Shown: positions 8,465-22,831 of the stretch, piece after piece
How the letters are laid out: each line of letters starts with the position of its first letter
Position numbering within the stretch: position 1 is the stretch's first letter
Assembly (NCBI GenBank): GCA_016214895.1
Contig: JACRMR010000020.1
Location: 105,812 to 169,811, forward strand
Direction: 5' to 3'
From: a candidate division KSB1 bacterium
GTDB lineage: Bacteria > Electryoneota > RPQS01
Length of the DNA stretch: 64,000 bases
The notes under the pieces: model-generated
Told to the model about the DNA's origin: nothing
The model's input: only the letters and a program-made list of their open reading frames with translations
Database searches by the model: none
Translations under genes and position numbers: made by a program

Positions 8465-9076
8465 TTACTTGCGCTTGTAGTGGATCTCCATCACCTTGAA
8501 TTCTTTCGGGGTGCCGACGGCGTCGTACATCTCGAACTTGTGGTTGTTGTCGTCGATCAAGGTCATGACATACTTGACGGGCTTGTCCTTGAGGTTCATC
8601 ATCGGATCGTCCATCTTGCCCAGCATGGTAATGGTCTTGCCGTCGGGGCTGCCGGTTCCTTCCGCGGTGGAGATCCCGGTGCCGAAGTCGTCGTTCCAAC
8701 TCATCCAATAGAGCTTGCGGAACTTGTCGTAGCCGGTCATGCCGATGCCGTGGTACGGCTGGCCCATCATGTCTCCGGTGAACTCGCTGTGCACCACGCG
8801 TCCACCCAGAATCATTTTGTCGATACAGCTCCCCTTGCTCTCCATCGGGGGCTGCGCGGGATCCATCCACATTTTGGAGGAGCAATCCCAATTCCCGACC
8901 ATTTTGGCGAGTGCGGCATGCTCGGCACCCGGGGTCCCAAGTTCCTTGCAGGCTTCCATCATCTTCTGCATCTCTTCGGGAGAGGGCTGCTTGTCCTGTG
9001 CGGGGGCGGAAACGGTCGCAGCGACGATGGCGGTCGCAACGACTGCGAAACGGAATGATCTGAAAAAGCTGAACAT
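8465..9076 (-). CDS. exported DUF1579-family protein
   Basis: A 203-residue protein with a signal peptide (residues 1-26, VSAPA) and mature sequence starting QDKQP. The body has features of DUF1579: GNWDCSSKMWMDP, GRVVHSEFTGDMMGQPYHG, GYDKFRKLYWMSW and a GKMDDPM strand, a lipocalin-like beta-barrel fold of unknown function. ATG at 9076 has AAAGGAG 6 nt upstream; the ATG at 9124 lies at the predicted transcription start. Cleavage would leave N-terminal Gln, a substrate for the glutaminyl cyclase at 56560. It has its own promoter and terminator. Confidence 0.85.
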   Translation of the reverse strand: MFSFFRSFRFAVVATAIVAATVSAPAQDKQPSPEEMQKMMEACKELGTPGAEHAALAKMVGNWDCSSKMWMDPAQPPMESKGSCIDKMILGGRVVHSEFTGDMMGQPYHGIGMTGYDKFRKLYWMSWNDDFGTGISTAEGTGSPDGKTITMLGKMDDPMMNLKDKPVKYVMTLIDDNNHKFEMYDAVGTPKEFKVMEIHYKRK

Positions 9077-9115
9077 AGCATCTCCTTTGGTTAGGTGGCT
9101 GAATTTGGATGCCCA

Positions 9116-9144
9116 AATGTACAAATTTCTCTAATTCGAGTCAA
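9116..9144 (-). promoter_or_regulatory. sigma-70 promoter for the DUF1579 gene
   Basis: TTGACT (9139-9144) and TACATT (9116-9121) have a 17-nt spacer on the minus strand, about 33 nt before the predicted leader end at the ATG. Confidence 0.7.
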
Positions 9145-9582: not shown

Positions 9583-10203
9583 TTACTTCTTGACCGGCTT
9601 CGCGGGGGCCGGCTTCGGCGCCGGTTTGAGCTTATTCAGCTCTTCCTGGGCCTTCATCATCGTCTCGGTACCCGCGAACTTGGGGTTCTTGACGAATTCT
9701 TCGGCCTTTGCGATCTTGGCCTTTTTGGCCAGTTTGGCGATTTTGTCCCATTCAGCCGCGGCCAGCTCATTACGAGCCTTCATACCGGCCGGGGTGTTGG
9801 GATACTTCGCGACGAGTTCATCGACCTTTTTGGCATCGTAGAGGCCCTGGGCTTGGGCATTACGGGCCTCATTGGCCGCCGGCGTGTCGGCATACTTGGC
9901 GAGCACTTCGTCGTACTTCTTCTCAGCCACGAGCTTGGCCGCGATGCGATTCTTGGCTTCGCCGACGAACTTGGTATCGGCGTAGTTGGCGAGGATTTCG
10001 TCGAATTTGCCATCGGCCAGCAGTTTTTCGGCGACCTTCTCTTTCGCTTGAGCCGCGATCGGCAGGTTCGAGTACTTGGCCATAATTTCCTCGTACTTAC
10101 CCGCATCAAACAGCTTTTGCGCGCGCTGCTCCGGCGACGCACAGCCGCCCGCCATCAGGGCGATGACCACTAGAACTGAGACGACACTTAACGTGCGCTT
10201 CAT
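9583..10203 (-). CDS. repeat-rich lipoprotein (paralogue 1)
   Basis: A 206-residue lipoprotein. The signal peptide ends in the lipobox MAGGC (lipidated Cys21). The mature part is built from four or more roughly 33-residue helical repeats of the type LFDAGKYEEIMAKYSN, LLADGKFDEILANYAD and LVAEKKYDEVLAKYAD, resembling degenerate TPR units. The C-terminus is Lys/Pro/Ala-rich (PAPKPAPAKPVKK). It may be a scaffold or peptidoglycan-associated adaptor in the envelope, but no function is known. ATG has AAGGAGGAG upstream. A shorter paralogue lies 179 nt upstream. Confidence 0.8.
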   Translation of the reverse strand: MKRTLSVVSVLVVIALMAGGCASPEQRAQKLFDAGKYEEIMAKYSNLPIAAQAKEKVAEKLLADGKFDEILANYADTKFVGEAKNRIAAKLVAEKKYDEVLAKYADTPAANEARNAQAQGLYDAKKVDELVAKYPNTPAGMKARNELAAAEWDKIAKLAKKAKIAKAEEFVKNPKFAGTETMMKAQEELNKLKPAPKPAPAKPVKK

Positions 10204-10382
10204 GGAAATTTACTCCTCCTTGGAGTACACTAAGATCTACCCGCCTGAATTCTCGCAGCGCGACATCGGGGCGAGTCTCCGGTGTGCCTTGCTTTCTATT
10301 GTTTGTAGAAAAAAAACGAAGGGGATCGGGCGGGCCAAACGGGCAGGCGGTCCGATCAGAGCCGCGGAGCCGCGACGGCAGC

Positions 10383-10985
10383 CTATTTCTTACCGGCCTT
10401 GCTGCGGATCTCCTGCAGGAGTCGGCTGGCCTCTTTGTAGGATGCGGTACCGGGCCACTTCTTCAGCAGCAGGTCAAATGCCTCTTCCTTGGCCTTACCT
10501 TTGAGCTTCTTGGCAGCCTCGAGATCGACCTTTGACAGCGAATCTTTGTACGCGGTAGCACGGGGCGCATCCGGGAAGCGCTTGAACAAAGTATCAAAGG
10601 CAGCGACGGTGATCAGGGAGTCAACGAGCTTGTCGCGCGACGACGCCGCGAACTGCGATCCGGGGAAAGAATCGAGCACAGCCTGGTATCGTCCGGCGTC
10701 AAAGAGCTGCCGGGCGAGTTCGTTTTTGGCTTTGAAGGCGGCTGGTGTATCTCGGTAATTTGCAAGTACTTCGGAGTAATTCTTGGCATTGACCAGCTCT
10801 TCGGCGACTTTGGCGCGGGCGCGGCGTCCGATTTCGAGGTCACTGAAGTTATCCATGACCTTTTGATACTCACCCTTGTCGAAGAGTTTCTGTGCCTGGG
10901 CGGCTCGGTTTGAACATCCGTTGATGCCGAGCAGTGCGAAAAGGAGGGTCAGGGAGAAAGTGAAGAGCAGAACGCGTTTGCTCAT
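10383..10985 (-). CDS. repeat-rich lipoprotein (paralogue 2)
   Basis: A 200-residue lipoprotein with lipobox GINGC (lipidated Cys24) and the same helical repeat design as its neighbour (LFDKGEYQKVMDNFSD, LVNAKNYSEVLANYRD, LFDAGRYQAVLDSFPG). It ends in a basic AGKK. The two are probably products of an old tandem duplication. ATG at 10985 is preferred because a promoter puts transcription start near 11023, too close to ATG 11015 or TTG 11018. No clear Shine-Dalgarno precedes 10985. Confidence 0.75.
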   Translation of the reverse strand: MSKRVLLFTFSLTLLFALLGINGCSNRAAQAQKLFDKGEYQKVMDNFSDLEIGRRARAKVAEELVNAKNYSEVLANYRDTPAAFKAKNELARQLFDAGRYQAVLDSFPGSQFAASSRDKLVDSLITVAAFDTLFKRFPDAPRATAYKDSLSKVDLEAAKKLKGKAKEEAFDLLLKKWPGTASYKEASRLLQEIRSKAGKK

Positions 10986-11030
10986 GACGAGATTATGCGA
11001 AGTGGTGCAGGCCATCAATTACAAACGGGG

Positions 11031-11264: not shown

Positions 11265-11293
11265 TTGCAATTATGACGGGTCGCGGCTATATT
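11265..11293 (+). promoter_or_regulatory. sigma-70 promoter for the ExbB/ExbD/TonB-like operon
   Basis: TTGCAA (11265-11270) and TATATT (11288-11293) with a 17-nt spacer give a start near 11300 and a 40-nt leader. The 355-nt divergent gap 10986-11340 otherwise holds only the opposing promoter; nothing is recognised at 11060-11260. Confidence 0.7.
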
Positions 11294-11340: not shown

Positions 11341-11955
11341 ATGAGCCCACGTTTGAAACTCCTTGCGCGCCGGGAATCGCTCGCCATTGCGGGGCTGAGC
11401 TTGATTTTGACGGTCGTTTATCATTCACTATCCTACGCATCGCCCACGACGGGATCACGTTATGTCACGATGTCCGAGCGCATCGGCAATGTGCTGGTGT
11501 TGTTCCGCAATCTGGACGTCTGGATCTATTTTTTCCAGGGCATCTTGCTGTTCGGCGGCATCGGCCTCACGGTCTATTACATGGTCGTGTTTCACCGCAA
11601 AGGATTCATCGCGACTCTGCAGCATAAGACGGAAGAGCTGACAAAGACGTCCGATTTGCAGGCCGCGGTCAATTTTGAGTTGGAGAGCCTGGCGAATCGG
11701 TTCTTGTTTCTCGATCTCATGGTCGGCGGGGCGCCGGTCGCGGGCCTGTTGGGCACGGTCCTGGGTCTGGTGCAGGTGTTCAGTGAGCAGACGCTGGTGG
11801 AGAACGTGACGATGCAGACGATTGCGGGCGGGATGTACGTAGCGATGGTGACGACGGTGTGCGGCTTGATCGTCGCGCTGTTCGGCATCATCGGCCGACA
11901 CCTGTTGAACACGCGGTTGTCGGAGATTCGGGATACGCTGACCGGAGCCAGGTAA
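11341..11955 (+). CDS. ExbB/TolQ/MotA-family proton channel protein
   Basis: A 204-residue inner-membrane protein. Helix 1 lies near residues 14-32, helix 2 near 60-84. The conserved pair of helices after residue 125 carries GAPVAGLLGTVLGLVQVF and TIAGGMYVAMVTTVCGL, the motif of ExbB/TolQ subunits that form the pentameric channel using proton flow to drive a periplasmic arm. Length is close to ExbB. No Shine-Dalgarno is seen before ATG 11341. It starts an operon with an ExbD-like partner 3 nt downstream, so a dedicated motor is likely. Confidence 0.85.
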   Translation: MSPRLKLLARRESLAIAGLSLILTVVYHSLSYASPTTGSRYVTMSERIGNVLVLFRNLDVWIYFFQGILLFGGIGLTVYYMVVFHRKGFIATLQHKTEELTKTSDLQAAVNFELESLANRFLFLDLMVGGAPVAGLLGTVLGLVQVFSEQTLVENVTMQTIAGGMYVAMVTTVCGLIVALFGIIGRHLLNTRLSEIRDTLTGAR

Positions 11956-11958
11956 TCC

Positions 11959-12405
11959 ATGAGACGAACTCGCGATCCGTTCGACGAGTCGATGACGTCG
12001 CTCATTGATCTCGCCTTCAATTTGCTCTTGTTTTTTGTGATCTCGCTGGTGATTGTGCCTGAAGATCTGGTGCCGCTCAAGTTGCCGACGAATTTCGGCG
12101 AAGGGCAGCCGGATTTGAAGGTCGGTGACGAGATCATATTCCATGTGCTGCGCTCGGGCGCGGTGGTGGTCGAGGATCAGTTGCTGGCCGATTCGACGGT
12201 GCTCGACTCGCTGTTGTTTGCGCGGGCGGACACGCTGTTGTCGCAGTTTCACGCGTCGAAGCCGCAGGGCAAGGTGATTCTAAAGGCGGACAGCGGCGCG
12301 GTGTGGGACCGTCCGATCCAACTCATGCAGGCGGCGGGGAAGCAAGGCGTTCCGATCAGTATCGCCTTGACACCCGACGTGGGAAGTCCGGCGGCAATTC
12401 CATGA
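11959..12405 (+). CDS. ExbD/TolR-family protein
   Basis: A 148-residue single-pass inner-membrane protein. The cytoplasmic start MRRTRDPFDE is followed by SMTSLIDLAFNLLLFFVIS, with the proton-carrying Asp17 that is invariant in ExbD/TolR. The periplasmic part is about 110 residues, with the usual ILKADSG and PIQLMQAA elements of the ExbD fold. It would pair with the preceding ExbB-like protein. The stop overlaps the next ATG by ATGA. Confidence 0.85.
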   Translation: MRRTRDPFDESMTSLIDLAFNLLLFFVISLVIVPEDLVPLKLPTNFGEGQPDLKVGDEIIFHVLRSGAVVVEDQLLADSTVLDSLLFARADTLLSQFHASKPQGKVILKADSGAVWDRPIQLMQAAGKQGVPISIALTPDVGSPAAIP

Positions 12406-13511
12406 GCGACAAACAGGTCAAACGCGGCATTCACGGGGCATCGTTGGTGCTGACGACGATCATGCTGCTCACGATCCCGACGGTGAACCTGCCGAAGTCA
12501 CTGGCGGACGTGAAGCTGCCGTTGCTGTTGATTCCGATCGAGGAACTCATCCGCATCGAGCAGGAGCGACCCAAGCCGAAGCCGATCCCGCTGAGTCAAG
12601 CGGGGATTGCTTCGGCCAGCACCCATGCGCCGATTTTCGCGCCGACGGAGATTCAGGCGGAGCCGTCGGAGATCCTGGTGGCGGAGCCGTCGCTGGAGCA
12701 GCCGGAGTTTGGATTGCTGTCTCCGCTGTATGAAGTGCCGCCGCCGGAGAATCGCGAGCCGACGCGGATGGAACCGGTGTCGTCTCCGCTGCCGGACATG
12801 CTGACGATGCGGAGCAATGAAGGACCGTTAGTGCCGCCGGCCGCGATGCCGGCTCCGGTATCGCAACGCGGGGCGAACTACCGCGGGTCGGGCGCGGCGG
12901 ATCTTGATATGGCGACTCAGCCATCCTATACGGGACCGAATCTCAATCTACCGGCCAGCGACATACCCGCAACCGGACTCAGTCACGGAGACGCGGTCTC
13001 GACATCGCCGACACCGGGCGCGGCCCGGGGGGATCGGTATCAGAGCAACGCGGGCAATTCGACCGGTCCCGCGACGAGCGCGGGTTTGAGCGGGCCGGGC
13101 GACGATGTGATCGGCGAAGGCGAGTTGAGCGGCTTGCTGAACTGGTTGCGCAGTCAGCACGCGGAGTTTCCGCCGGTCGTGCAATCGTATATGGAGACTC
13201 GGAGTTCCGATTTACGCGGGATCACGAGTCACTCCGGGTGGGATATCTTCGTGCAGTTCAGCGAGGCGGAGCATCAGCTCAAGATCTTTCTGGCACGCGG
13301 TGGGATTGGAATTCTGCTGGCGGATTCCGACTTCAAGTCGCGCTCGCAGTTATTTGGCATGGGCAACGTGACGCGGGAGGGTGGAGTGATCAGCGCGATC
13401 GCGGCGCGGCGGGATAAGCCCACGACGGAGCGGACGGATGAATTTTATCGTGTGTTCACGGAATGGATGAGCACGATTGGCATTTCGTTGGGATCGAGGG
13501 CGGCGCGATGA
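12402..13511 (+). CDS. TonB-like membrane-anchored Pro-rich protein
   Basis: A 369-residue protein with a short basic N-terminus, one membrane segment (residues about 12-29) and a long Pro/Ala/Ser-rich linker to about residue 240 that starts with EQERPKPKPIP, like TonB. A folded C-terminal region (about 245-369) opens LLNWLRSQHAEFPPVV and contains GWDIFVQFSE and FLARGGIGILL. This end is not obviously a standard TonB C-terminal domain, so its outer-membrane partner may be novel, possibly the beta-barrel protein encoded two genes on. Coupled to both neighbours by ATGA overlaps. Confidence 0.7.
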   Translation: MSDKQVKRGIHGASLVLTTIMLLTIPTVNLPKSLADVKLPLLLIPIEELIRIEQERPKPKPIPLSQAGIASASTHAPIFAPTEIQAEPSEILVAEPSLEQPEFGLLSPLYEVPPPENREPTRMEPVSSPLPDMLTMRSNEGPLVPPAAMPAPVSQRGANYRGSGAADLDMATQPSYTGPNLNLPASDIPATGLSHGDAVSTSPTPGAARGDRYQSNAGNSTGPATSAGLSGPGDDVIGEGELSGLLNWLRSQHAEFPPVVQSYMETRSSDLRGITSHSGWDIFVQFSEAEHQLKIFLARGGIGILLADSDFKSRSQLFGMGNVTREGGVISAIAARRDKPTTERTDEFYRVFTEWMSTIGISLGSRAAR

Positions 13512-13585
13512 AATCTGAAATCCGAAATTCGAAATCCGAGTATCGATTCCGGCGGGGTCGGGAGACTCTGCGCGGGGTGAGGGAA
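13507..13585 (+). repeat. dispersed repeat inside the 5' end of the TPR gene
   Basis: 13508-13540 is a run of GAAATC-type heptads (GAAATCTGAAATCCGAAATT). 13548-13580 matches the repeat at 4160-4192 with one gap and about two substitutions. Both parts lie between the coupled start codon and the signal-peptide coding region. Confidence 0.7.
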
Positions 13586-14992
13586 GCGAAATCGCGCGCG
13601 GCCGCGCGGTGCTACGGAGGATGCTGCGCAATTCTGATGGCCCTGGTCTTGCTCGCGGGAACCGCGGTGGCGGGAAAGAAGCAGGCTCCGGCCCCGGCGG
13701 GAGTCGATTCGACGACCGTCCAGCAGGCGGATTCGTTGGCCCGGGAGCTGTTCGGCGACCAGAAGCGATTCGACGAGGCGCGTCGGCAGTTTGAAAACGG
13801 CAAGGATGATTTCAATGCCGGCGAAGCGTTCATTCGGGAGGCGGACTCGTTGCGCGCGATTGGAATTGACACGACGCTGCGTCGTCCGGGCGGAGTGTTC
13901 GGCCAGATCCGGCAGGCGCTCGGGGATACGGTACCCTCGTCGCGGGAACAGGATACGCGCAAGCGGGCCGAGGCGGCGTTCAAGCGCGCCGTGCGTGAAT
14001 TTGAGCAGGCCCAGAAGATTCAGCCCGACATGCAGGAGATCCCGCTCTGGCTGGTGGCGACGTACGATCGTTTGCAGGATTGGACGAAGTCGCTCGCGCT
14101 GTATCGCGAGATCCTGAATGAGCGCCAGGGCGAGGACCGGCTGTGGTTCAGTTACGGCTATGCGGCCCTGCGGGCGGGTCAATATGACAAGGCGGTGATG
14201 GCGTTCGGGCAGGCGATCTCGGTTCACTTTCTGGTGAATGAGGACTCGGCCCGGATTCCGAACCGTTACCGCGCATATCTGGGCGAGGCCTACATCAAGA
14301 CGTATCAGGACCGGCTCGCGCTGGAGCAGTTCCGGCAGGCGCAAGAATATGCCGCGGATACGAGCGAGCGCGCGGAGCTGCAGCGCACGATCGATTGGAT
14401 TCAGTGGGACGAGGGCGGGATTGCGACGGTGGAGTATCGCGATGCGGCGTTTCGGGCCGAGACCGAATCGCGTTGGAATGACGCACGGGAGGCGTATCTG
14501 GGCGGCATTCAAGCGTCGCGGAGTCCGGCCGCGCGCAACGAGTTGAGTTACCGGCTGACGCTACTCGAATTCCGGCAATCGTCGAAGTCGGATGCGCTCG
14601 CGCGGATGAAGTCACTGATCGATGGGACGCCCGATGCCAGCGACGAATGGCGTGAGAATTACGGCAAGATGTTGTATGCGTATGCGCAGGAGACGGAGCA
14701 GGGCGGCGATACGCGCGGCGCGCTGGGCTATTATTTGCAGGCCACGAAGTTTCCGTGGAGCGGGCAGGGCGTCGGCTATTTGGAGATTGCGCGCGTCGCG
14801 GCGAACGATCTGGACCAGGCGATTGAGCACGCAACGCACGCGCTGGAGTTTCCGCTCTCCGCGGAGCAGCGGCAGGCGGCCTACAAGCGGCTGGAAGAAG
14901 CCTATCGATCAAAAGGTAACTGGGACAAAATGAAATACTATCGCAGGTTGCAGGAAGGCGGTCCGGTCGAGGAGGGTGAAGCAAAGCGATGA
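13508..14992 (+). CDS. exported TPR-repeat protein
   Basis: A 494-residue protein if it starts at ATG 13508, which overlaps the previous stop by ATGA. The first 35 residues are Arg/Lys/Ser-rich and encoded by a dispersed repeat. A hydrophobic signal segment CCAILMALVLLAGTAVA follows, then mature GKKQAPAP. The rest is helical with TPR-like units (AFKRAVREFEQAQKIQPD, SLALYREILNERQGE, YDKAVMAFGQAI, ALEQFRQAQEYA). It probably serves as a periplasmic scaffold in the energised complex. A later start at 13637 would shorten the signal peptide. Confidence 0.75.
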   Translation: MKSEIRNSKSEYRFRRGRETLRGVREAKSRAAARCYGGCCAILMALVLLAGTAVAGKKQAPAPAGVDSTTVQQADSLARELFGDQKRFDEARRQFENGKDDFNAGEAFIREADSLRAIGIDTTLRRPGGVFGQIRQALGDTVPSSREQDTRKRAEAAFKRAVREFEQAQKIQPDMQEIPLWLVATYDRLQDWTKSLALYREILNERQGEDRLWFSYGYAALRAGQYDKAVMAFGQAISVHFLVNEDSARIPNRYRAYLGEAYIKTYQDRLALEQFRQAQEYAADTSERAELQRTIDWIQWDEGGIATVEYRDAAFRAETESRWNDAREAYLGGIQASRSPAARNELSYRLTLLEFRQSSKSDALARMKSLIDGTPDASDEWRENYGKMLYAYAQETEQGGDTRGALGYYLQATKFPWSGQGVGYLEIARVAANDLDQAIEHATHALEFPLSAEQRQAAYKRLEEAYRSKGNWDKMKYYRRLQEGGPVEEGEAKR

Positions 14993-16749
14993 ATCTATGC
15001 CTTACCGTTTTGCAGTTCGCCCGGTCTCGTTGGCGAGAGTTTCGGGTCGGTGGTATGCTGTTCGTGGCGGTGCTTGCGCTGACGACGGATGCGACCTACG
15101 CGGCCGGCGATTTGGAGTTCAAGCTGATCACGCTGAAGACGATCAGCGATCAGCGGGAGATCGGGTTGATTCGCAACGAACTGCTGCTCGGTTCGGAAGC
15201 CATCGACCGCATCGTGATTACCGATCTGTTGAATGACGGGTTTGATGAGAACGATTTTATGCAGCTCTATCCGACGGGCCGCGTCGTACGGATCCAGCGG
15301 ATTGAACCGCGGCTGGACTCGCTGCTGCGATCTTACAAGCTGCCGTCGAACGTGGAGATTCATGAATCGAAGTCGTTTTTTACGAAGTACGATTCGACTT
15401 CGCGGGTGCGCAACGGCGGCCAGGCGTTGGGGTACGGGCTGTTGGGCGGGATCAGCGAGCGGTTGTATCGCGGGTACCGGGGAACGGATGTGGAAGGCTA
15501 TTTCAAATTTACGCCGAGCGGGATGGCGATTCAAGCCTGGAATTTCGATTCGACGAAGGTCCGATTTCCGCCGCCCGATGCGCCGCGGGTGGACACATTT
15601 TATGTGTATTTGCACGACACGATCCGCGTTCCGGAAGTCGTAACAGTCGCGGCGGAACCGATCGTGATTCGCGACACGGTGTATATACCTAGCGAGTTGT
15701 TGCTGCGCCCGCGCGGCATGTTTTATCGTGTGGGATTAGGGCTTGTGGGCGGCAGCTACCACACGGGCTTGCGCGAGGTTTCGCGCGGTCGCTTGACGTT
15801 GGGGGCGGGCAATGAGTGGGATTTCGGAGTGTGGGATCCGTGGATCAGCGGCCGGCAGGATGTGGATTCGCGGATTGGGTTGCGGTTTCTGGCGGACATG
15901 GCGCCCTGGAAGAGCGACACGCTGTCGCCGCGATTTCTGGGGACGTCGATGGAGGCGATGTACATTCCGGCGTGGGATCGTTCGCTGTTCGCCTTCGTGG
16001 GCATGCGGGCCTATCTTGACGATGATCCGTTCTGGGATCGCGCGCGGGCCGCGTGGGACGAAGCGGATTACGAGGAGCCGTCGGCGCAGGATTTATCGCA
16101 GTACGAATTGACGTTTAAGGGCGGATTGGACAAGTTAAGCGCCACCGGCGCGGGCAAGAAGCTGGGCTTATGGCTGAAGCTCGCGGGGTTTATCAACACG
16201 AACAAGTCGGGTTACGACGTGACGGTGGCCGGACCCGTGGTTGGCCGGTTCTACAGTTCCGCGCAGCCGCTGCGGTTCCGTTGGGAGCATAGCGGCGGCG
16301 GCGACATCGAACTTGGCTTGAACGCGCGGCTCAGCGACTTCGCGCAATTGACGATCAGCGCGGGCGATTATCAGTTGCCGAACTTCGCCTGGGAATACAC
16401 GGACTCGACGCTGGGCGCAAACGGGACGCGGACGGGCCTGATTCGCGCGCAGCAGATTTATCAGACGGTCGCGGTGCGGATCGCGCCGATCAACTCGGAG
16501 GACGCGCGGTTGTCGCTGGAGGGCTGGTTCCGCAACCACAGCTTCACGAAGTCGAACAAGCGCGGCGAGGACAACGCGATCATCGAGCGTGTGTTCCTGC
16601 CGTACTTCGAGACGCCGGAAATGGGCGGCGCGGTGCAGCTCGACATATCGTTTGTGCGGGTCGAGGCCGGTGCGAAGTATTTTGCGCCGCCGGACGGTCT
16701 GAACGCAGTCGTGCGGCCTTATGGATCGGTGCATTTCATGATTCAGTAG
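14989..16749 (+). CDS. predicted outer-membrane beta-barrel protein of the ExbBD operon
   Basis: A 586-residue exported protein with signal peptide to about residue 39 (TYAAGD). Residues 40-210 form a soluble region with a repeated Asp-rich style (ITDLLNDGFDENDF). From about residue 240 to the end, alternating amphipathic strands (MFYRVGLGLVGGSYH, DSRIGLRFLADM, GLWLKLAGFI) suggest a beta-barrel, ending YGSVHFMIQ. It is the last gene of the operon, ATGA-coupled to the TPR gene and followed by a terminator. It does not look like a TonB-dependent receptor: no plug or TonB box is recognised. Confidence 0.7.
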   Translation: MNLCLTVLQFARSRWREFRVGGMLFVAVLALTTDATYAAGDLEFKLITLKTISDQREIGLIRNELLLGSEAIDRIVITDLLNDGFDENDFMQLYPTGRVVRIQRIEPRLDSLLRSYKLPSNVEIHESKSFFTKYDSTSRVRNGGQALGYGLLGGISERLYRGYRGTDVEGYFKFTPSGMAIQAWNFDSTKVRFPPPDAPRVDTFYVYLHDTIRVPEVVTVAAEPIVIRDTVYIPSELLLRPRGMFYRVGLGLVGGSYHTGLREVSRGRLTLGAGNEWDFGVWDPWISGRQDVDSRIGLRFLADMAPWKSDTLSPRFLGTSMEAMYIPAWDRSLFAFVGMRAYLDDDPFWDRARAAWDEADYEEPSAQDLSQYELTFKGGLDKLSATGAGKKLGLWLKLAGFINTNKSGYDVTVAGPVVGRFYSSAQPLRFRWEHSGGGDIELGLNARLSDFAQLTISAGDYQLPNFAWEYTDSTLGANGTRTGLIRAQQIYQTVAVRIAPINSEDARLSLEGWFRNHSFTKSNKRGEDNAIIERVFLPYFETPEMGGAVQLDISFVRVEAGAKYFAPPDGLNAVVRPYGSVHFMIQ

Positions 16750-16773: not shown

Positions 16774-16805
16774 AAAATCCCCGCGAGTCGTCGCGGGGAT
16801 TTTTG
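16774..16805. terminator. strong bidirectional rho-independent terminator
   Basis: A 13-bp stem (16774-16786 with 16791-16803) with AAAA and TTTTT flanks separates the beta-barrel gene from convergent pgl. Confidence 0.9.
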
Positions 16806-16828: not shown

Positions 16829-17551
16829 TCAGCGGATCTTGCGGGCGGCGGCGTGATCGAGGAGCCACAGGCACTCGCCGGGTGCGGGATCCACGCGCGC
16901 GGCGGGAAGTTGTACACGGTTTTCGTGAATGATCTCGTGGACGCGCTGCGCTTTTGCTTCGCCGCAGACGAGGAAGATGACGCGGCGGGCGCGGTTGATC
17001 AGATTCAGCGTGAAGGTGATGCGGTGACGCACCGGCTGATCGACCTCGACGGCTTCGATGAGGCTCGCGGATTCCAAGGCGGGCTGGCCGGGAAATAGCG
17101 AAGCGGTGTGGCCGTCGGCTCCCATGCCGAGCAGAATCACGTCGAACACGGGAGGACCGGGATCGAGCCGCGCGCGCAGCGTGCGGGCGTATTCGGCAGC
17201 GGCTTCACGCGGGTCGATCTCGCCGCGGATGCGGAACACTTCACCGATGGGCATCCGGTCCAGCAGCAGACGTTTGGCGATCGCGAAATTGGAGTCGGGG
17301 GAGTCGGGCGGCACACAGCGCTCGTCGCTCCAGAAGACTTCCCAGTTTTCCCAGGCCATCTCATCGCGCCATTCCTCGGTGGTGAGCCGCGCGAACAGCA
17401 GACCCGGAGTCGTGCCGCCGGAGAGTGCGACGCGAAATACACCACGCTCGGCGACGGCCTCGGTCTGAGATTCGAAGATGAGATCGGCGGCGGCGTCCGC
17501 CACGTCGTCGGGGGTTTCGCAGAAGACGATTTGTCGAGAATCCGCGGTCAT
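16829..17551 (-). CDS. pgl: 6-phosphogluconolactonase
   Basis: A 240-residue cytoplasmic enzyme hydrolysing 6-phosphogluconolactone to 6-phosphogluconate. Family motifs are VALSGGTTPGLLFARL, the FWSDERCVPPDSPDSNF loop and ILLGMGADGHTASLFPG. Length fits the DevB type. ATG at 17551 overlaps the opcA stop by ATGA; the longer frame to 17617 intrudes on opcA. It is the last gene of gnd-zwf-opcA-pgl. Confidence 0.95.
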   Translation of the reverse strand: MTADSRQIVFCETPDDVADAAADLIFESQTEAVAERGVFRVALSGGTTPGLLFARLTTEEWRDEMAWENWEVFWSDERCVPPDSPDSNFAIAKRLLLDRMPIGEVFRIRGEIDPREAAAEYARTLRARLDPGPPVFDVILLGMGADGHTASLFPGQPALESASLIEAVEVDQPVRHRITFTLNLINRARRVIFLVCGEAKAQRVHEIIHENRVQLPAARVDPAPGECLWLLDHAAARKIR

Positions 17552-18501
17552 GCCCGTCGCTCGAGTCGCGCGCGGGCGAGGTTCAGGGTGGATTCCATGA
17601 CGGGATCGCGTCCCCACACTCGGAGCTCGGCGGAGATGAGATCGGTCATTGCCCGCTCGACTTGAGCCTCAGGCGCAGCCTGCACTCGGCCGTCGGCGAG
17701 CAACAGTTCGGTTGTGTTGGCATCGGCGACGATCTCGCAGACGGGACTGCCGCCGTGGTGATGCAGCGTGGTCTCGATCCAGCAGGCGAACAGTAGATCG
17801 GCGGCGCTCAGGCCGCTGGCGGGCAATCGCAGTCCGCGAATCGGCGGCCGCGACGTGCTCTCATACCATCTCACGAACGCGACGCGACGCGGCTGTAATC
17901 GGGTCCAGCACAGGTCCGAACATACGGCATCCCTTCCGAGCAGTTGTCGTAAGGAGAAGAATTCGCGCAGCGCGGCGGCGGAGCTTGCGGGCCTGATCAA
18001 GTCGGTGATGACGCGGTTCGCGGAATGGCCGAACTGCAAGAGCAAGGGATGCGCGGAATCGACGGCCGCATCCCAGATCAGCACGATCGGCAGGCCGGGC
18101 AGCATGAGCGAGAGCAAAGTGGATGCGATATGGTGCAGGCCCGAGCCGGTGACTTCGAGGGAGATGAACTCGCTGCAAATCTGCGGCGCATTCGGCGCGG
18201 GTTGGTGGCAATAAGCCGTAACCCAGGCGGTCTGCGTGGGCGGCGCGGCGGGATCGCCCATACGCAGGAGGATGCTGCGGGAGGGGTGCGCGAGTGTCAG
18301 GCGGGCGAGCAGATTGCCGGCGTTATCATCCGCGGCGGGCGCCACGTACACGAGATTGAAGGCGGTGGCGCGGGTGACGGACTCGGTGTCGCCGCCTTTC
18401 GCGGCATCGCGCCAGAGCGTTTCGAGTTCGCGTTCGATGGCCGCGACGTCAACTTCGCAGGGGTCCGCGAGGGCGTAAACGGCTGGGCCGGTCTCGCTCA
18501 T
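17548..18501 (-). CDS. opcA: glucose-6-phosphate dehydrogenase assembly protein OpcA
   Basis: A 317-residue protein matching OpcA, best known in cyanobacteria and actinobacteria, where it activates or helps assemble glucose-6-phosphate dehydrogenase, partly in response to redox state. Features are the RSILLRMGDP strand, the LPGLPIVLIWDA segment, and the C-terminal LPASGLSAADLLFACWIETT helix. ATG at 18501 overlaps the zwf stop as TGATG, and its own stop overlaps pgl. This placement directly after zwf strengthens the assignment. Confidence 0.85.
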   Translation of the reverse strand: MSETGPAVYALADPCEVDVAAIERELETLWRDAAKGGDTESVTRATAFNLVYVAPAADDNAGNLLARLTLAHPSRSILLRMGDPAAPPTQTAWVTAYCHQPAPNAPQICSEFISLEVTGSGLHHIASTLLSLMLPGLPIVLIWDAAVDSAHPLLLQFGHSANRVITDLIRPASSAAALREFFSLRQLLGRDAVCSDLCWTRLQPRRVAFVRWYESTSRPPIRGLRLPASGLSAADLLFACWIETTLHHHGGSPVCEIVADANTTELLLADGRVQAAPEAQVERAMTDLISAELRVWGRDPVMESTLNLARARLERRA

Positions 18502-20039
18502 CAGATCTTTCTCCAGCGGCGGCCATCTTGTGCCAAGAGAATATCGGCTTCGGCCGGTCCCCAACTGCCCGCGGGGTACTGTGGCAGCTCAGAAGCGATG
18601 TCCTGTTCCCAGTGCTTGAGGATCGGTGAGGCGAAGCTCCACCCCGCTTCGACCGCATCGCGCCGGGCGTAGAGCGTGGGATCGCCGAGCATGCCGTCGA
18701 GCAGCAACCGCTCATAGGCATCGGAGATTCGACCGCCGAACGACGTTCCGTAACGAAACTCCATGTCCACGCCGCGCAAGTGCAGCGCATGCCCGGGCAG
18801 TTTCGCGTTGAACTTCAGACTGATTCCTTCATTGGGTTGAATGCGGATGGCCAGCGTGTTGCGCTCGACTTGATTCAGCGGCGAGTCGTCGAACACCATA
18901 TGCGGGACATCGCGGAACTGTATGGCGACCTCGGTCGAGCGTTTCGGCATGCGCTTACCCGTGCGCAGATAGAATGGGACGCCCTTCCAGCGCCAGTTGT
19001 CGATCCACAGGCGCAGCGCGGTAAAGGTTTCCGTGCGCGATTGCGGATTCACGCCCTGCTCCGCAAGATATTCGGGGACGGCGCGACCACTCACGGCACC
19101 GGCGGCATACTGCGCGCGCACGACGGACTTGCGCACATCGTCGGCGGTCAACGGTCGAATCGCGGCGAGCGCTTTGTTCTTTTCGTCGCGAATGGCCTCC
19201 GGAGTGAGCGTGGCGGGCGGCTCCATCGCCACCATGGCCAGAATCTGCAACAAGTGATTTTGGATCATGTCGCGCAGCGCGCCGGACTCTTCGTAATACG
19301 CGGCGCGATCCTCGACGCCGAGTGCTTCGGCCGCGGTGATCTGGACGTGGTCGATGTAGCGGTAGTTCCAGAGCGGCTCGAACAGTGCATTCGCGAGCCG
19401 CAGGACGAGAATGTTCTGGACGGTCTCTTTGCCAAGATAGTGATCGATGCGATAGATCTGCTGCTCGTCGAAGGCTTCGGCGAGGGTGGTATTCAGGCGG
19501 CGGGCGGTTTGGAGATCGCGCCCGAAGGGTTTTTCGACGATGATGCGGGTCCAACCGTTTTCGGCTGAACGCGCGAGTCCCGACGCTCCGAGTTTGAGCA
19601 CCAGCGGCTCATAAGTCGAGGGCGGAACGGAGAGGTAAAAGAGGATATTGTCGCGGGTGTTGTGTGCCGCCGCGATCTGCTTCAGCTTATCGGGCAGCGT
19701 GACAAACGGATTCGTGCCGGACAGTTCCTCGCTGTGGACGAACAGGCGGTGGGCGAAGCGCTCGAGGAAATCGGGATCGCGCGGGGAATCGGGGGCGAAT
19801 TTTGCGGCGGAATCGAGGACCGTGGCGCGGAATACGCTCGCGTCGAGGGGTCGGCGCGACACCGCGATCATCACAGTCTCGCGAGCCAGCTCACCGCCGC
19901 GCGCAAGGTTCATGAGCGCGGGAAAGAGCTTGCGTTGCGCGAGGTCTCCGGTAGCGCCGAAGATCACGATCAGGCAGGGATCGGCGGCCCGATCTTGCAG
20001 GAGTCCGGCGCGGAAGGGGTTGTCGCCCGTGTTGGTCAT
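18501..20039 (-). CDS. zwf: glucose-6-phosphate 1-dehydrogenase
   Basis: A 512-residue cytoplasmic dehydrogenase oxidising glucose-6-phosphate to the lactone with NAD(P). It has the nucleotide-binding GATGDLAQRKLFPAL (residues 28-42), EKPFGRDL (169-176) and the substrate signature RIDHYLGKE (197-205). Length is full for the family. ATG at 20039 overlaps the gnd stop by ATGA. It is the second gene of the oxidative pentose phosphate operon, which supplies NADPH and ribulose-5-phosphate. Confidence 0.97.
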   Translation of the reverse strand: MTNTGDNPFRAGLLQDRAADPCLIVIFGATGDLAQRKLFPALMNLARGGELARETVMIAVSRRPLDASVFRATVLDSAAKFAPDSPRDPDFLERFAHRLFVHSEELSGTNPFVTLPDKLKQIAAAHNTRDNILFYLSVPPSTYEPLVLKLGASGLARSAENGWTRIIVEKPFGRDLQTARRLNTTLAEAFDEQQIYRIDHYLGKETVQNILVLRLANALFEPLWNYRYIDHVQITAAEALGVEDRAAYYEESGALRDMIQNHLLQILAMVAMEPPATLTPEAIRDEKNKALAAIRPLTADDVRKSVVRAQYAAGAVSGRAVPEYLAEQGVNPQSRTETFTALRLWIDNWRWKGVPFYLRTGKRMPKRSTEVAIQFRDVPHMVFDDSPLNQVERNTLAIRIQPNEGISLKFNAKLPGHALHLRGVDMEFRYGTSFGGRISDAYERLLLDGMLGDPTLYARRDAVEAGWSFASPILKHWEQDIASELPQYPAGSWGPAEADILLAQDGRRWRKI

Positions 20040-20935
20040 GCCTTTTTCACGGCGTGGCCGCCGAATTCGTTGCGCAGCGCGGAAATCAAGCGCAGACCGT
20101 AGGCGTTGTCATGGCGCGAAGCAAACCGCGCGAACAGGCTGGCGGCGATCACATAGGCGGGGACGTCGCGGTCGATCGCTTCCTGTAGCGTCCAGCGGCC
20201 TTCGCCGGAGTCCGCGACGTAGGCTTTTACGGCAGCGAGTTCGGGATCCTTTTCCAGTGCGCGAGTCGTCAGTTCGAGCAGCCAAGAGCGCACGACGCTG
20301 CCCTGTTCCCAGAGCTTGGAGATGCGCGCGAGATCCAGATTGAAGGGCGAGCTCTTGAGAATCTCGAAGCCCTCGCCGTAGGCCTGCATCATGCCGTATT
20401 CAATGCCGTTGTGCACCATCTTGGTGTAATGTCCGGAGCCGACTCCGCCGGTATGCAGATAGCCGTTTTCCGGAGCGAGTGTTTTCAGGGCGGGTTCCAG
20501 ATAAGCAAATGGTTCTGGTTCACCGCCGACCATCAGGCAATATCCGACTTGCAAGCCCCAGATGCCGCCGGACGTTCCGGCATCCATGAAATGGAGTGCT
20601 TTGGTCTTGAGCAGCTCGCCGCGCCGGATGGAATCCTTGTAGTTGGCGTTGCCGCCATCGATCACGATGTCACCGGGTTTGAGCAGGTCCATGAGTTCGA
20701 CGAGGGCGCTCTCGGTGACGTTTCCGGCCGGCAACATTACCCACACGGCTTTGCGTCCGCCGGGCATATTCCGGACGACGTCGTGGAGGGTTGCGGCCCC
20801 GACGGCGCCCTGGCGAACGGCGTCCGCGACGGGACCGGGGCTGCGATTTCCGGCGATGATGGAATGTCCGCCGCGGAGCAGGCGCTCCACCATATTTCCG
20901 CCCATACGGCCCAGACCGAAGAAACCTAAGACCAT
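20036..20935 (-). CDS. gnd: 6-phosphogluconate dehydrogenase (decarboxylating, short type)
   Basis: A 299-residue enzyme converting 6-phosphogluconate to ribulose-5-phosphate and CO2. It has the NAD(P) site GFFGLGRMGGNM, the DGGNANYKDS segment, GTSGGIWGLQVGY, and the catalytic region HYTKMVHNGIEYGMM. The roughly 300-residue size is that of the short, often NAD-linked type, not the 470-residue form. ATG at 20935 has AGGA 9 nt upstream; the longer frame to 21112 is not family-like. It is the first gene of the operon; no clear promoter was found in the 192-nt gap. Confidence 0.95.
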   Translation of the reverse strand: MVLGFFGLGRMGGNMVERLLRGGHSIIAGNRSPGPVADAVRQGAVGAATLHDVVRNMPGGRKAVWVMLPAGNVTESALVELMDLLKPGDIVIDGGNANYKDSIRRGELLKTKALHFMDAGTSGGIWGLQVGYCLMVGGEPEPFAYLEPALKTLAPENGYLHTGGVGSGHYTKMVHNGIEYGMMQAYGEGFEILKSSPFNLDLARISKLWEQGSVVRSWLLELTTRALEKDPELAAVKAYVADSGEGRWTLQEAIDRDVPAYVIAASLFARFASRHDNAYGLRLISALRNEFGGHAVKKA

Positions 20936-21074
20936 AGTGAGTATTCCTGCAAGTTGGTGTTGATTGATAGGCTCGCCGACCGGGTCAGGCGCGCTGGGGA
21001 AAAGGTGTCGAATTTTGGGGAATGTTGCAACTCCGGTGCCGCAAATGCGGCGGACCGTCCGGGAGGAATGCGAA

Positions 21075-21102
21075 GCCCCCTTCGTCCGGAAACGAAGGGG
21101 GC
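21075..21102 (-). terminator. rho-independent terminator
   Basis: An 11-bp stem (21075-21085 with 21092-21102) lies 25 nt past the stop of the T9SS protein at 21128 and closes the 16-gene minus-strand run. Confidence 0.75.
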
Positions 21103-21127
21103 GACATCGCACATCGCGCCGGGGCGC

Positions 21128-22831
21128 TTACTTCAGCAGGACAACCTTGCGCGTGACGGTGGTTCCGTTGGCACTCAGTTGCGCGAAATAGAGGCCGGAA
21201 GTCAACTCGCTCGCGTCAAAATGAACGATATGAGCGCCGGCGGCCATGGCACCGTCCACCAACGTTGCAACCTGTTGCCCGGCGAGGTTGTAGATTCGCA
21301 GGGCGATGTTGCCTGGGTTGGCAAGCTCAAAGGCGAAGTCAGTCGATGCGTTGAACGGATTCGGGTAGTTGCCGGCGAAATCGAAGCCGCGGGCAACCGT
21401 CGGATCGTCATCGACTCCGTTAATGTCATCACCGGGCACCGCAATAACCTGGACCGCCCAGCTGACGATGCTGCCGATGTCTTCGGCATGGTTATCGTAA
21501 ACCAGCAGAGTCCAGCTGCCTTCGGCGGGAGCGGAGTCAAAGATGTTTAACGGGTTTGCAGGGCGCAGCGTGCCGGAATAGGGCGGCGACGTGAAGAAGA
21601 TGTAGTCCGTGGCTTCGTCATCGAACATCACGTCTTCGATATTGTCACCCCAGATATTCAGGTTGTGCTGGTACAGCTGGACGGTGCGGCCGTCGGGCGC
21701 ACGCAGCCAGACGTCGAGATCTCCAATCCACGAGTGCTCGATGTTGACCCTGACGTTCAGATCGAGGACGGTGAAGTTCAGCGGGAAGCTGATCGGCCAC
21801 GAGGTGGTGTCGAAGTCCAGCACAGCCCGGGGGAGGCCCAGGGCAGGATAGGTCCGCGTCAGCGTGTCTTGTCGTTGCAGAACCAAGTTCGCCGAATCCG
21901 TCACCGCACCGACATTGACATTGATGTTCGCCAGGGTCCCAAGTTCATAGTGAACGCCGGCATTGATGCTGATACTGTGAACTCCGGCGGGAATGAAGTT
22001 GAACCGGTACGAGCCATCATCGAGGCAAATGGTCTGGTATCCGAGTCCGTCAACGGTGACGGCCACATCGGCATCGGTGATCGGCCGAAAGTGGGTTTCA
22101 TCCACGGCCCAGCGGATCACACCGGCGAACGATCCGGTGGGTCCGATGGCATCGGTGTTGATTTCGAAGTCATCGAACTTGAGCACGAATCGATTAGACG
22201 ACGTGCAATGGAGCGCGATATAGATCGACTGATCGGCGAAGGCGGCGAGGTCAACTATGTGTCGAGTCCACTGCACCGGCGCATCGTTGACGGTTTCAAT
22301 CACCGTGGTGAAGTCCTCGGGCGCGAATCCGGTCGTGGAGACGCGGATTTCGTAGGATTCGAGAAACGCAGGGTCCTGCGAGGCGGCGTAATAGTGCAGA
22401 TTCAGTCCGGCGCCGGCGGTGATTTGCGGCAGGATGAGCCAGTCGTTGTTGGGCAGGCCGCCGTCATTGTAGTGAACCATGGCGATGCGCGTTCCGCTGC
22501 GGGCGTTTTCGCGACCATAGTTAAAGACTTCGAACAGGGAATTGCGATTCCACTGGTTGCAGAAGCCACCATCCTGGTCGATTCGGCGCCAGCCGCTGGG
22601 AAGATCGCCGCTCACGATCGATTCGAAATCTTCGCTATAGACCACATCATCAAGGCTGCGCGAGCCGCTGCGTCCGGGCAGATCACCGGCCAGCGGAAGG
22701 GCGGGCGGATCGGCGCTGACATCCGCTTTGCTCGCGGGGCTGAAGGGGAGTTTGGCGGTTGGGCCGCCGGCGAGAGCGACCGCGGCAGCAAGGCAACTCG
22801 TCAAAAGGACCGCGGTAAGAAACCGTTTCAT
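21128..22831 (-). CDS. T9SS-exported protein with choice-of-anchor J, regulatory and P domains
   Basis: A 567-residue surface or secreted protein. A signal peptide to about residue 21 (VALA) precedes a cleaved-adhesin/choice-of-anchor J domain (residues about 65-230; YSEDFES, GWRRIDQDGG, NDWLILPQI). A carboxypeptidase-regulatory-like domain follows (about 235-320; DDGSYRFNFIPAGVHSI), then a proprotein-convertase P domain (about 345-465; IEHSWIGDLDVWLRAPDG, GSWTLLVYDNH). It ends in a T9SS sorting domain (NYPNPFNAST, GLYFAQL, KVVLLK). There is no protease domain, so it is probably an adhesin or binding protein. The next T9SS gene lies 59 nt upstream. Confidence 0.9.
   Translation of the reverse strand: MKRFLTAVLLTSCLAAAVALAGGPTAKLPFSPASKADVSADPPALPLAGDLPGRSGSRSLDDVVYSEDFESIVSGDLPSGWRRIDQDGGFCNQWNRNSLFEVFNYGRENARSGTRIAMVHYNDGGLPNNDWLILPQITAGAGLNLHYYAASQDPAFLESYEIRVSTTGFAPEDFTTVIETVNDAPVQWTRHIVDLAAFADQSIYIALHCTSSNRFVLKFDDFEINTDAIGPTGSFAGVIRWAVDETHFRPITDADVAVTVDGLGYQTICLDDGSYRFNFIPAGVHSISINAGVHYELGTLANINVNVGAVTDSANLVLQRQDTLTRTYPALGLPRAVLDFDTTSWPISFPLNFTVLDLNVRVNIEHSWIGDLDVWLRAPDGRTVQLYQHNLNIWGDNIEDVMFDDEATDYIFFTSPPYSGTLRPANPLNIFDSAPAEGSWTLLVYDNHAEDIGSIVSWAVQVIAVPGDDINGVDDDPTVARGFDFAGNYPNPFNASTDFAFELANPGNIALRIYNLAGQQVATLVDGAMAAGAHIVHFDASELTSGLYFAQLSANGTTVTRKVVLLK

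Follow-up and report, generated by a model that had tools for sequence, protein, structure and literature searches.

Five co-oriented genes occupy positions 11341-16749 on the forward strand of the window, a stretch of 64,000 nucleotides from contig JACRMR010000020.1 of a candidate division KSB1 bacterium (assembly GCA_016214895.1). ORF reading placed the genes at 11341-11955, 11959-12405, 12402-13511, 13508-14992 and 14989-16749. Genes 1 and 2 are spaced by 3 nt, and the three following junctions are ATGA overlaps (at 12402, 13508 and 14989). The terminator, a perfect 13-bp hairpin at 16774-16803 (+) that is probably common to the convergent gene, folds at -27 kcal/mol over a 48-nt stretch (z = -6). 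The first-pass annotation of the locus as five coupled genes, joined by three ATGA overlaps and one gap of 3 nt and closed by one terminator, was correct at every coordinate. The single promoter that it placed at 11265-11293 was recovered by a promoter scan as a 9/12 match; the scan returned 5 matches of this type in 6 kb, where 1.5 ± 1.3 were expected. Because such matches also arise by chance nearby, this site is weak evidence for a promoter and does not stand clearly above chance. Two small repeat lipoproteins are encoded divergently upstream, at 10383-11018 (-) and 9583-10203 (-). Both are conserved companions of the operon in the family, the first at the same position in relatives, and they are candidate members of the machine at most. 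A homologue of the second lipoprotein sits near SprA in the source genome.

Genes 1 and 2 encode the subunits of an ion-channel motor. Gene 1 (11341-11955, +) encodes an ExbB-like channel subunit of 204 aa (MotA_ExbB, E 9e-20) and gene 2 (11959-12405, +) an ExbD-like channel subunit of 148 aa (ExbD, E 4e-11), both domains exceeding the Pfam cut-off. Alignment with two proteins of the source genome, TolQ and the housekeeping ExbB, located a GLLGT motif at aa 135-139 and a TT pair at aa 171-172 of the ExbB-like protein. Asp17 of the ExbD-like protein (codon 12007-12009) aligned with the channel Asp of ExbD/TolR in 10 of 10 aligned sequences from the source genome and its relatives. The Pfam matches and this alignment confirmed that the two homologues carry the proton-channel residues, Asp17 included, as had been proposed. 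The source genome (3.2 Mb, 26 contigs) encodes three MotA_ExbB proteins, corresponding to a TolQ-TolR-TolA(TonB_C)-TolB locus, a classical ExbB-ExbD-ExbD-TonB locus and the 11341-16749 operon. Its TonB_C proteins were found in two loci, both apart from this operon. Since separate Tol and Ton loci are present, the operon is neither the TonB nor the Tol system of the genome.

Gene 3 (12402-13511, +) encodes a TonB-like force transducer of 369 aa, made of a single hydrophobic segment at aa about 10-28 (the transmembrane anchor), an arm containing 12-20% Pro (aa 30-235) and a C-terminal head domain of 132 aa (13113-13508, +; alignments A1, A5 and A6). No Pfam or NCBIfam match to the protein was detected, even at E<1, and profile searches of the head against PDB sequences returned chance matches only. 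AlphaFold modelled the head with a pLDDT of 86.5 and a pTM of 0.82 as helix-helix-six strands-helix, a predicted alpha2-beta6-alpha layout, and comparison of this model with PDB folds gave no match at E<=0.001. The head had no vWA match in Pfam, and its predicted layout differs from that of a vWA domain. The earlier description of a TonB-like anchor and Pro-rich arm followed by an unrecognised domain therefore stands: that domain matches no recognised family, and the possibility that it was a standard TonB_C was ruled out by the Pfam, NCBIfam, PDB-sequence and PDB-fold searches. As judged from these comparisons, the TonB_C head is replaced in gene 3 by an unrelated, conserved head.

Gene 4 (13508-14992, +) encodes an exported TPR protein of 494 aa with sub-threshold TPR matches in Pfam. 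Gene 5 (14989-16749, +) encodes a barrel-like outer-membrane protein of 586 aa that is conserved in relatives and has no family match. It combines an N-domain of about 195 aa (15106-15690, +), supported by synteny and by its occurrence as a free protein in a sister system, and a predicted beta-barrel region (15691-16746, +) in which a low-confidence model places about 13 strands between aa 320 and 583. The overall pLDDT of the gene 5 model was poor (51.6). The nearest solved structures of the barrel part were almost all outer-membrane barrels, none of them at E<=0.001. Gene 5 had been described as a predicted barrel without plug or TonB box. The barrel-like character was retained, and the Pfam and NCBIfam searches returned no match, hence no receptor, plug or Tol-Pal family; the conserved N-domain is an addition to that description. 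Profile searches of the N-domain against PDB sequences gave chance matches only. Its matches in genomes G150 and G287 were likewise attributed to chance, the one in G150 being a RelA/SpoT protein.

In a search of relatives, nine more genomes from the same family and order yielded the transducer at E 9e-35 or better. Weak matches, with E between 6e-5 and 3e-7, came from three genomes in another family of the phylum. The order that recurs in the family is two divergent lipoproteins, ExbB, ExbD, transducer, TPR and barrel; it is complete in two genomes and elsewhere cut by a contig end or rearranged. In several genera pgl follows downstream, then zwf-gnd. Each of the five proteins shares 44-62% identity with its counterparts in three relatives, one of which belongs to a sister family, and the association of the five genes therefore exceeds chance. 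Gene-neighbourhood comparison thus answered the question of whether the order is kept elsewhere: it holds in relatives from the family and the order. In G011, an insertion separates the transducer and TPR genes.

A sister system with its own motor genes was found in two of the three genomes with weak matches, and in one more genome found by profile; the third weak match is cut short by a contig end. The sister system reads PorP/SprF-like, ExbB, ExbD, ExbD, transducer, TPR lipoprotein, free N-domain protein and SUMF1-domain proteins. The best NCBIfam match of the SUMF1 proteins was GldK, below cut-off (two scanned), and the PorP-like protein exceeded the cut-off of Pfam and fell short of that of NCBIfam. 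PorP/SprF-like and GldK-like genes are usual, not constant, in the sister system, and no PorP or GldK gene was found in the 11341-16749 operon itself. Besides other families of the phylum, the sister system occurs in the family of the window operon, in G001 and G005 (in both beside a window-type system) and in G007 (alone). A genome from another phylum, G088, encodes the core of the system, with ExbB-ExbD-ExbD, TPR and N-domain genes, an ORF resembling the transducer and a gene with weak likeness to SUMF1. Profile comparison indicated that gene 4 is homologous to the TPR protein of the sister system (99.7% probability), and reading of the N-termini revealed a lipobox in its counterparts from both the sister family and the sister system. 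The N-domain displayed 15 invariant columns across 10 sequences from both systems; it is fused to the barrel in the 11341-16749 operon and free in the sister system, where a PorP/SprF-like barrel is encoded instead. No homology between the barrels of the two systems was detectable by profile comparison, which also rejected PorP as an identity for the gene 5 barrel. Head, TPR protein and N-domain appear to form a constant core, around which the motor and the outer-membrane companion would be exchangeable.

The transducer carries an anchor resembling that of the housekeeping TonB in four genomes, within a window-type system in G002, G004 and G005 and a sister-type system in G007. The swapped anchor has the motif YGSxxLK...GxNLxxGL..S, followed by SxxxH in three of the four transducers; in G002 the His is replaced by Phe. 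According to a recent survey, this His is the residue by which TonB and TolA contact their motors (PMC12204202). No dedicated ExbB for the swapped system was found in the four genomes; TolQ and the housekeeping ExbB were found in all of them. Transducers adjoining ExbB/ExbD genes are without the TonB-like anchor. In G002, G005 and G007 the swapped transducer is in place and within a contig. In G004 its gene lies at another site, and the lipoprotein genes are followed directly by the TPR-barrel pair. G002 is the weakest case of a missing ExbB because this genome is only 56% complete. Since the head bears a TonB anchor, incomplete assembly alone does not explain the swap. The barrel tree required at least three changes, whether gains or reversals, to account for the window-type swaps, because G005 is set apart from G009, a member of its own genus, and G004 is set apart from G006 and G010. 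Judging by the anchor motif and this tree, the relatives have repeatedly switched the same head between a dedicated motor and a TonB anchor. We take the exchange of anchors to argue strongly that the head bears the load and is driven by motors of the ExbBD type. Such a repeated swap amounts to nature's controlled exchange, and makes the head directly testable as a force-bearing part.

Channel residues, topology, a tight conserved operon and the exchange of anchors are observed directly in the sequences. We consider it probable that the products form a dedicated force machine that spans the envelope and has an outer-membrane partner of its own, because the operon is a third ExbBD set, its order is conserved, head, TPR protein and N-domain are kept together and the motor is swapped, and also because SprA adjoins the system in the sister family and the source genome encodes at least 150 sorting tails. 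The analysis thus supports the original proposal of a proton-driven machine distinct from generic TonB uptake, with a function that we infer from sequence. Proton flow through a motor of the ExbB5-ExbD2 type would move the transducer. The head would grip the TPR protein and the N-domain through putative contacts and could pull or turn the predicted barrel. Energy from the inner membrane would in this way work one specific outer-membrane assembly, which would most likely serve the export, placement or movement of cell-surface proteins, not nutrient uptake. In this uncultured bacterium of the FCB group, the machine is probably proton-driven and its head probably works its own barrel.

The surroundings of the system suggest a link to type IX secretion (T9SS). 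A search of 41 genomes found the translocon protein SprA in 40, with scores above cut-off in 36. TIGR04183 sorting tails were scored up to a ceiling of 150; each of the 16 genomes searched had 64 or more, and the source genome reached the ceiling, so that its number is at least 150. None of 39 genomes of the phylum yielded GldL; in the same search, extended to outside genomes until positives appeared, three of the outside genomes scored above cut-off. In the two sister-family genomes SprA is encoded divergently next to the operon, and these two adjacencies may reflect one event. PorP/SprF-like and GldK-like genes accompany the sister system. On these grounds, the operon could be the core T9SS/gliding energiser of the lineage, with ExbBD replacing GldLM, a reading that we regard as unlikely. 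Head and N-domain are absent from 21 of the 39 genomes of the phylum, 19 of which have SprA over cut-off, and the system is present in G005 and G024, which have no convincing SprA. Of the 18 genomes with the system, 16 had SprA above cut-off, and of the 21 without it, 19 did. There is thus no association between the two across the phylum, and a role in handling surface proteins is consequently drawn from synteny only. In the source genome SprA lies about 175 kb from the operon. Comparison with GldL, GldM and GldN profiles built from GldL-bearing genomes led to the rejection of the ExbB-like protein as GldL (0.9% probability), of the head as GldM (0.1%) and of the N-domain as GldN (0.1%, with a GldN profile from two sequences only). 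The more general idea that, in this T9SS-bearing lineage outside Bacteroidota, the GldLM motor of T9SS or gliding was replaced by ExbB/ExbD motors with a new head is hardly stronger and is put forward tentatively. The operon and the sister system with its PorP/GldK genes would then be two versions of one machine, driven in some genomes even by the housekeeping TonB motor, a proposal that is equally speculative. For genomes that are rich in T9SS tails and have no detectable GldL, the operon is a concrete candidate for the power source of this secretion.

That the operon encodes a specialised importer of the TonB type, working with an atypical receptor, appears improbable. Such an importer would account for the presence of ExbB, ExbD, a TonB-like topology and an outer-membrane barrel in one operon, and for anchors that are interchangeable with that of TonB. 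However, TonB_C is missing, no plug or receptor family was matched, the conserved neighbourhood has neither a transporter gene nor an enzyme gene such as an uptake locus would have, and the sister system encodes PorP/SprF-like and SUMF1 proteins instead. A Tol-Pal-like envelope-maintenance system is very improbable: among NCBIfam models, those for TolQ and TolR gave the two channel subunits their best scores, albeit far below the cut-offs, but the source genome has its TolQ-TolR-TolA-TolB locus elsewhere, TolQ was found in 12 of 12 relatives searched, mostly beside TolR and TolA, and the operon is without TolB, Pal or TonB_C.

The dedicated force machine was finally compared with known systems. 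To our knowledge, few classes of ion-driven envelope force transducers exist: TonB, TolA, a recently proposed vWA class and the GldM/MotB types. No description of the present system was found in the part of the open-licence literature that was covered. With a MotA_ExbB domain, an ExbD domain and the channel Asp, the encoded motor is of the ExbB/TolQ/MotA type, for which a 5:2 stoichiometry and proton conduction are presumed here. Like ExbB-ExbD-TonB, it combines an ExbB/ExbD motor with a one-TM, Pro-rich transducer, and in four relatives a TonB anchor lies under the head; unlike it, the operon has no TonB_C or TonB-dependent receptor and encodes its own TPR and N-domain-barrel proteins. It shares TolQ/TolR-like motor subunits with Tol-Pal, but is without the TolA domain, TolB and Pal, and the TolQ-TolR-TolA-TolB genes form a separate locus. 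The likeness to GldKLMN/PorP lies in the PorP/SprF-like and GldK-like genes beside the motor of the sister system and in the SprA neighbour of the sister family, whereas the motor is ExbB/ExbD, head and N-domain are unlike GldM and GldN, and PorP and GldK are missing from the operon. The closest precedent is provided by vWA-headed force transducers, which have a TPR gene beside a TolQ/TolR-like motor (PMC12204202). Both have a non-TonB head on a one-TM, Pro-rich transducer, a TolQ/TolR-like motor and a TPR gene, but the head described here has no vWA match and another predicted layout, and an outer-membrane barrel is encoded in the operon. Because it lacks a defining feature of each, the operon falls outside the TonB, Tol-Pal, GldLM and vWA classes. 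It is most likely a variant of ExbBD-type force machines with a previously undescribed head, and extends the classes of force transducers by a head domain that has an outer-membrane partner of its own.

Two small repeat lipoproteins, kept across the family, are encoded divergently from the operon on the minus strand (window 9583-11018), and a homologue was found near the gene for the T9SS translocon SprA elsewhere in the same genome (locus L092, 16202-16876). Also on the minus strand is the gene for a secreted-looking DUF1579 protein (window 8465-9124; E = 4e-42). After the operon, the pentose phosphate genes pgl-zwf-gnd are convergent with it (window 16829-21112, minus strand), an arrangement also seen in several genera. 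The window contains a T9SS sorting tail of the TIGR04183 family (21140-21367, minus strand), and the genome as a whole encodes at least 150.

In genome G011, the operon is split between the transducer and TPR genes by an insert (locus L023, 4846-8904) made of a DNA-methyltransferase-like gene, an adjacent gene that possibly encodes the matching restriction partner, and one for a sorting-tail repeat protein. One named record carrying the operon (L079) is labelled Candidatus Puniceispirillum; based on its relatives, this label looks misassigned. Outside the phylum, genome G088 contains an ExbB-ExbD-ExbD set, a transducer-like ORF, TPR and N-domain genes and a weakly SUMF1-like gene (locus L117, 4746-11464).
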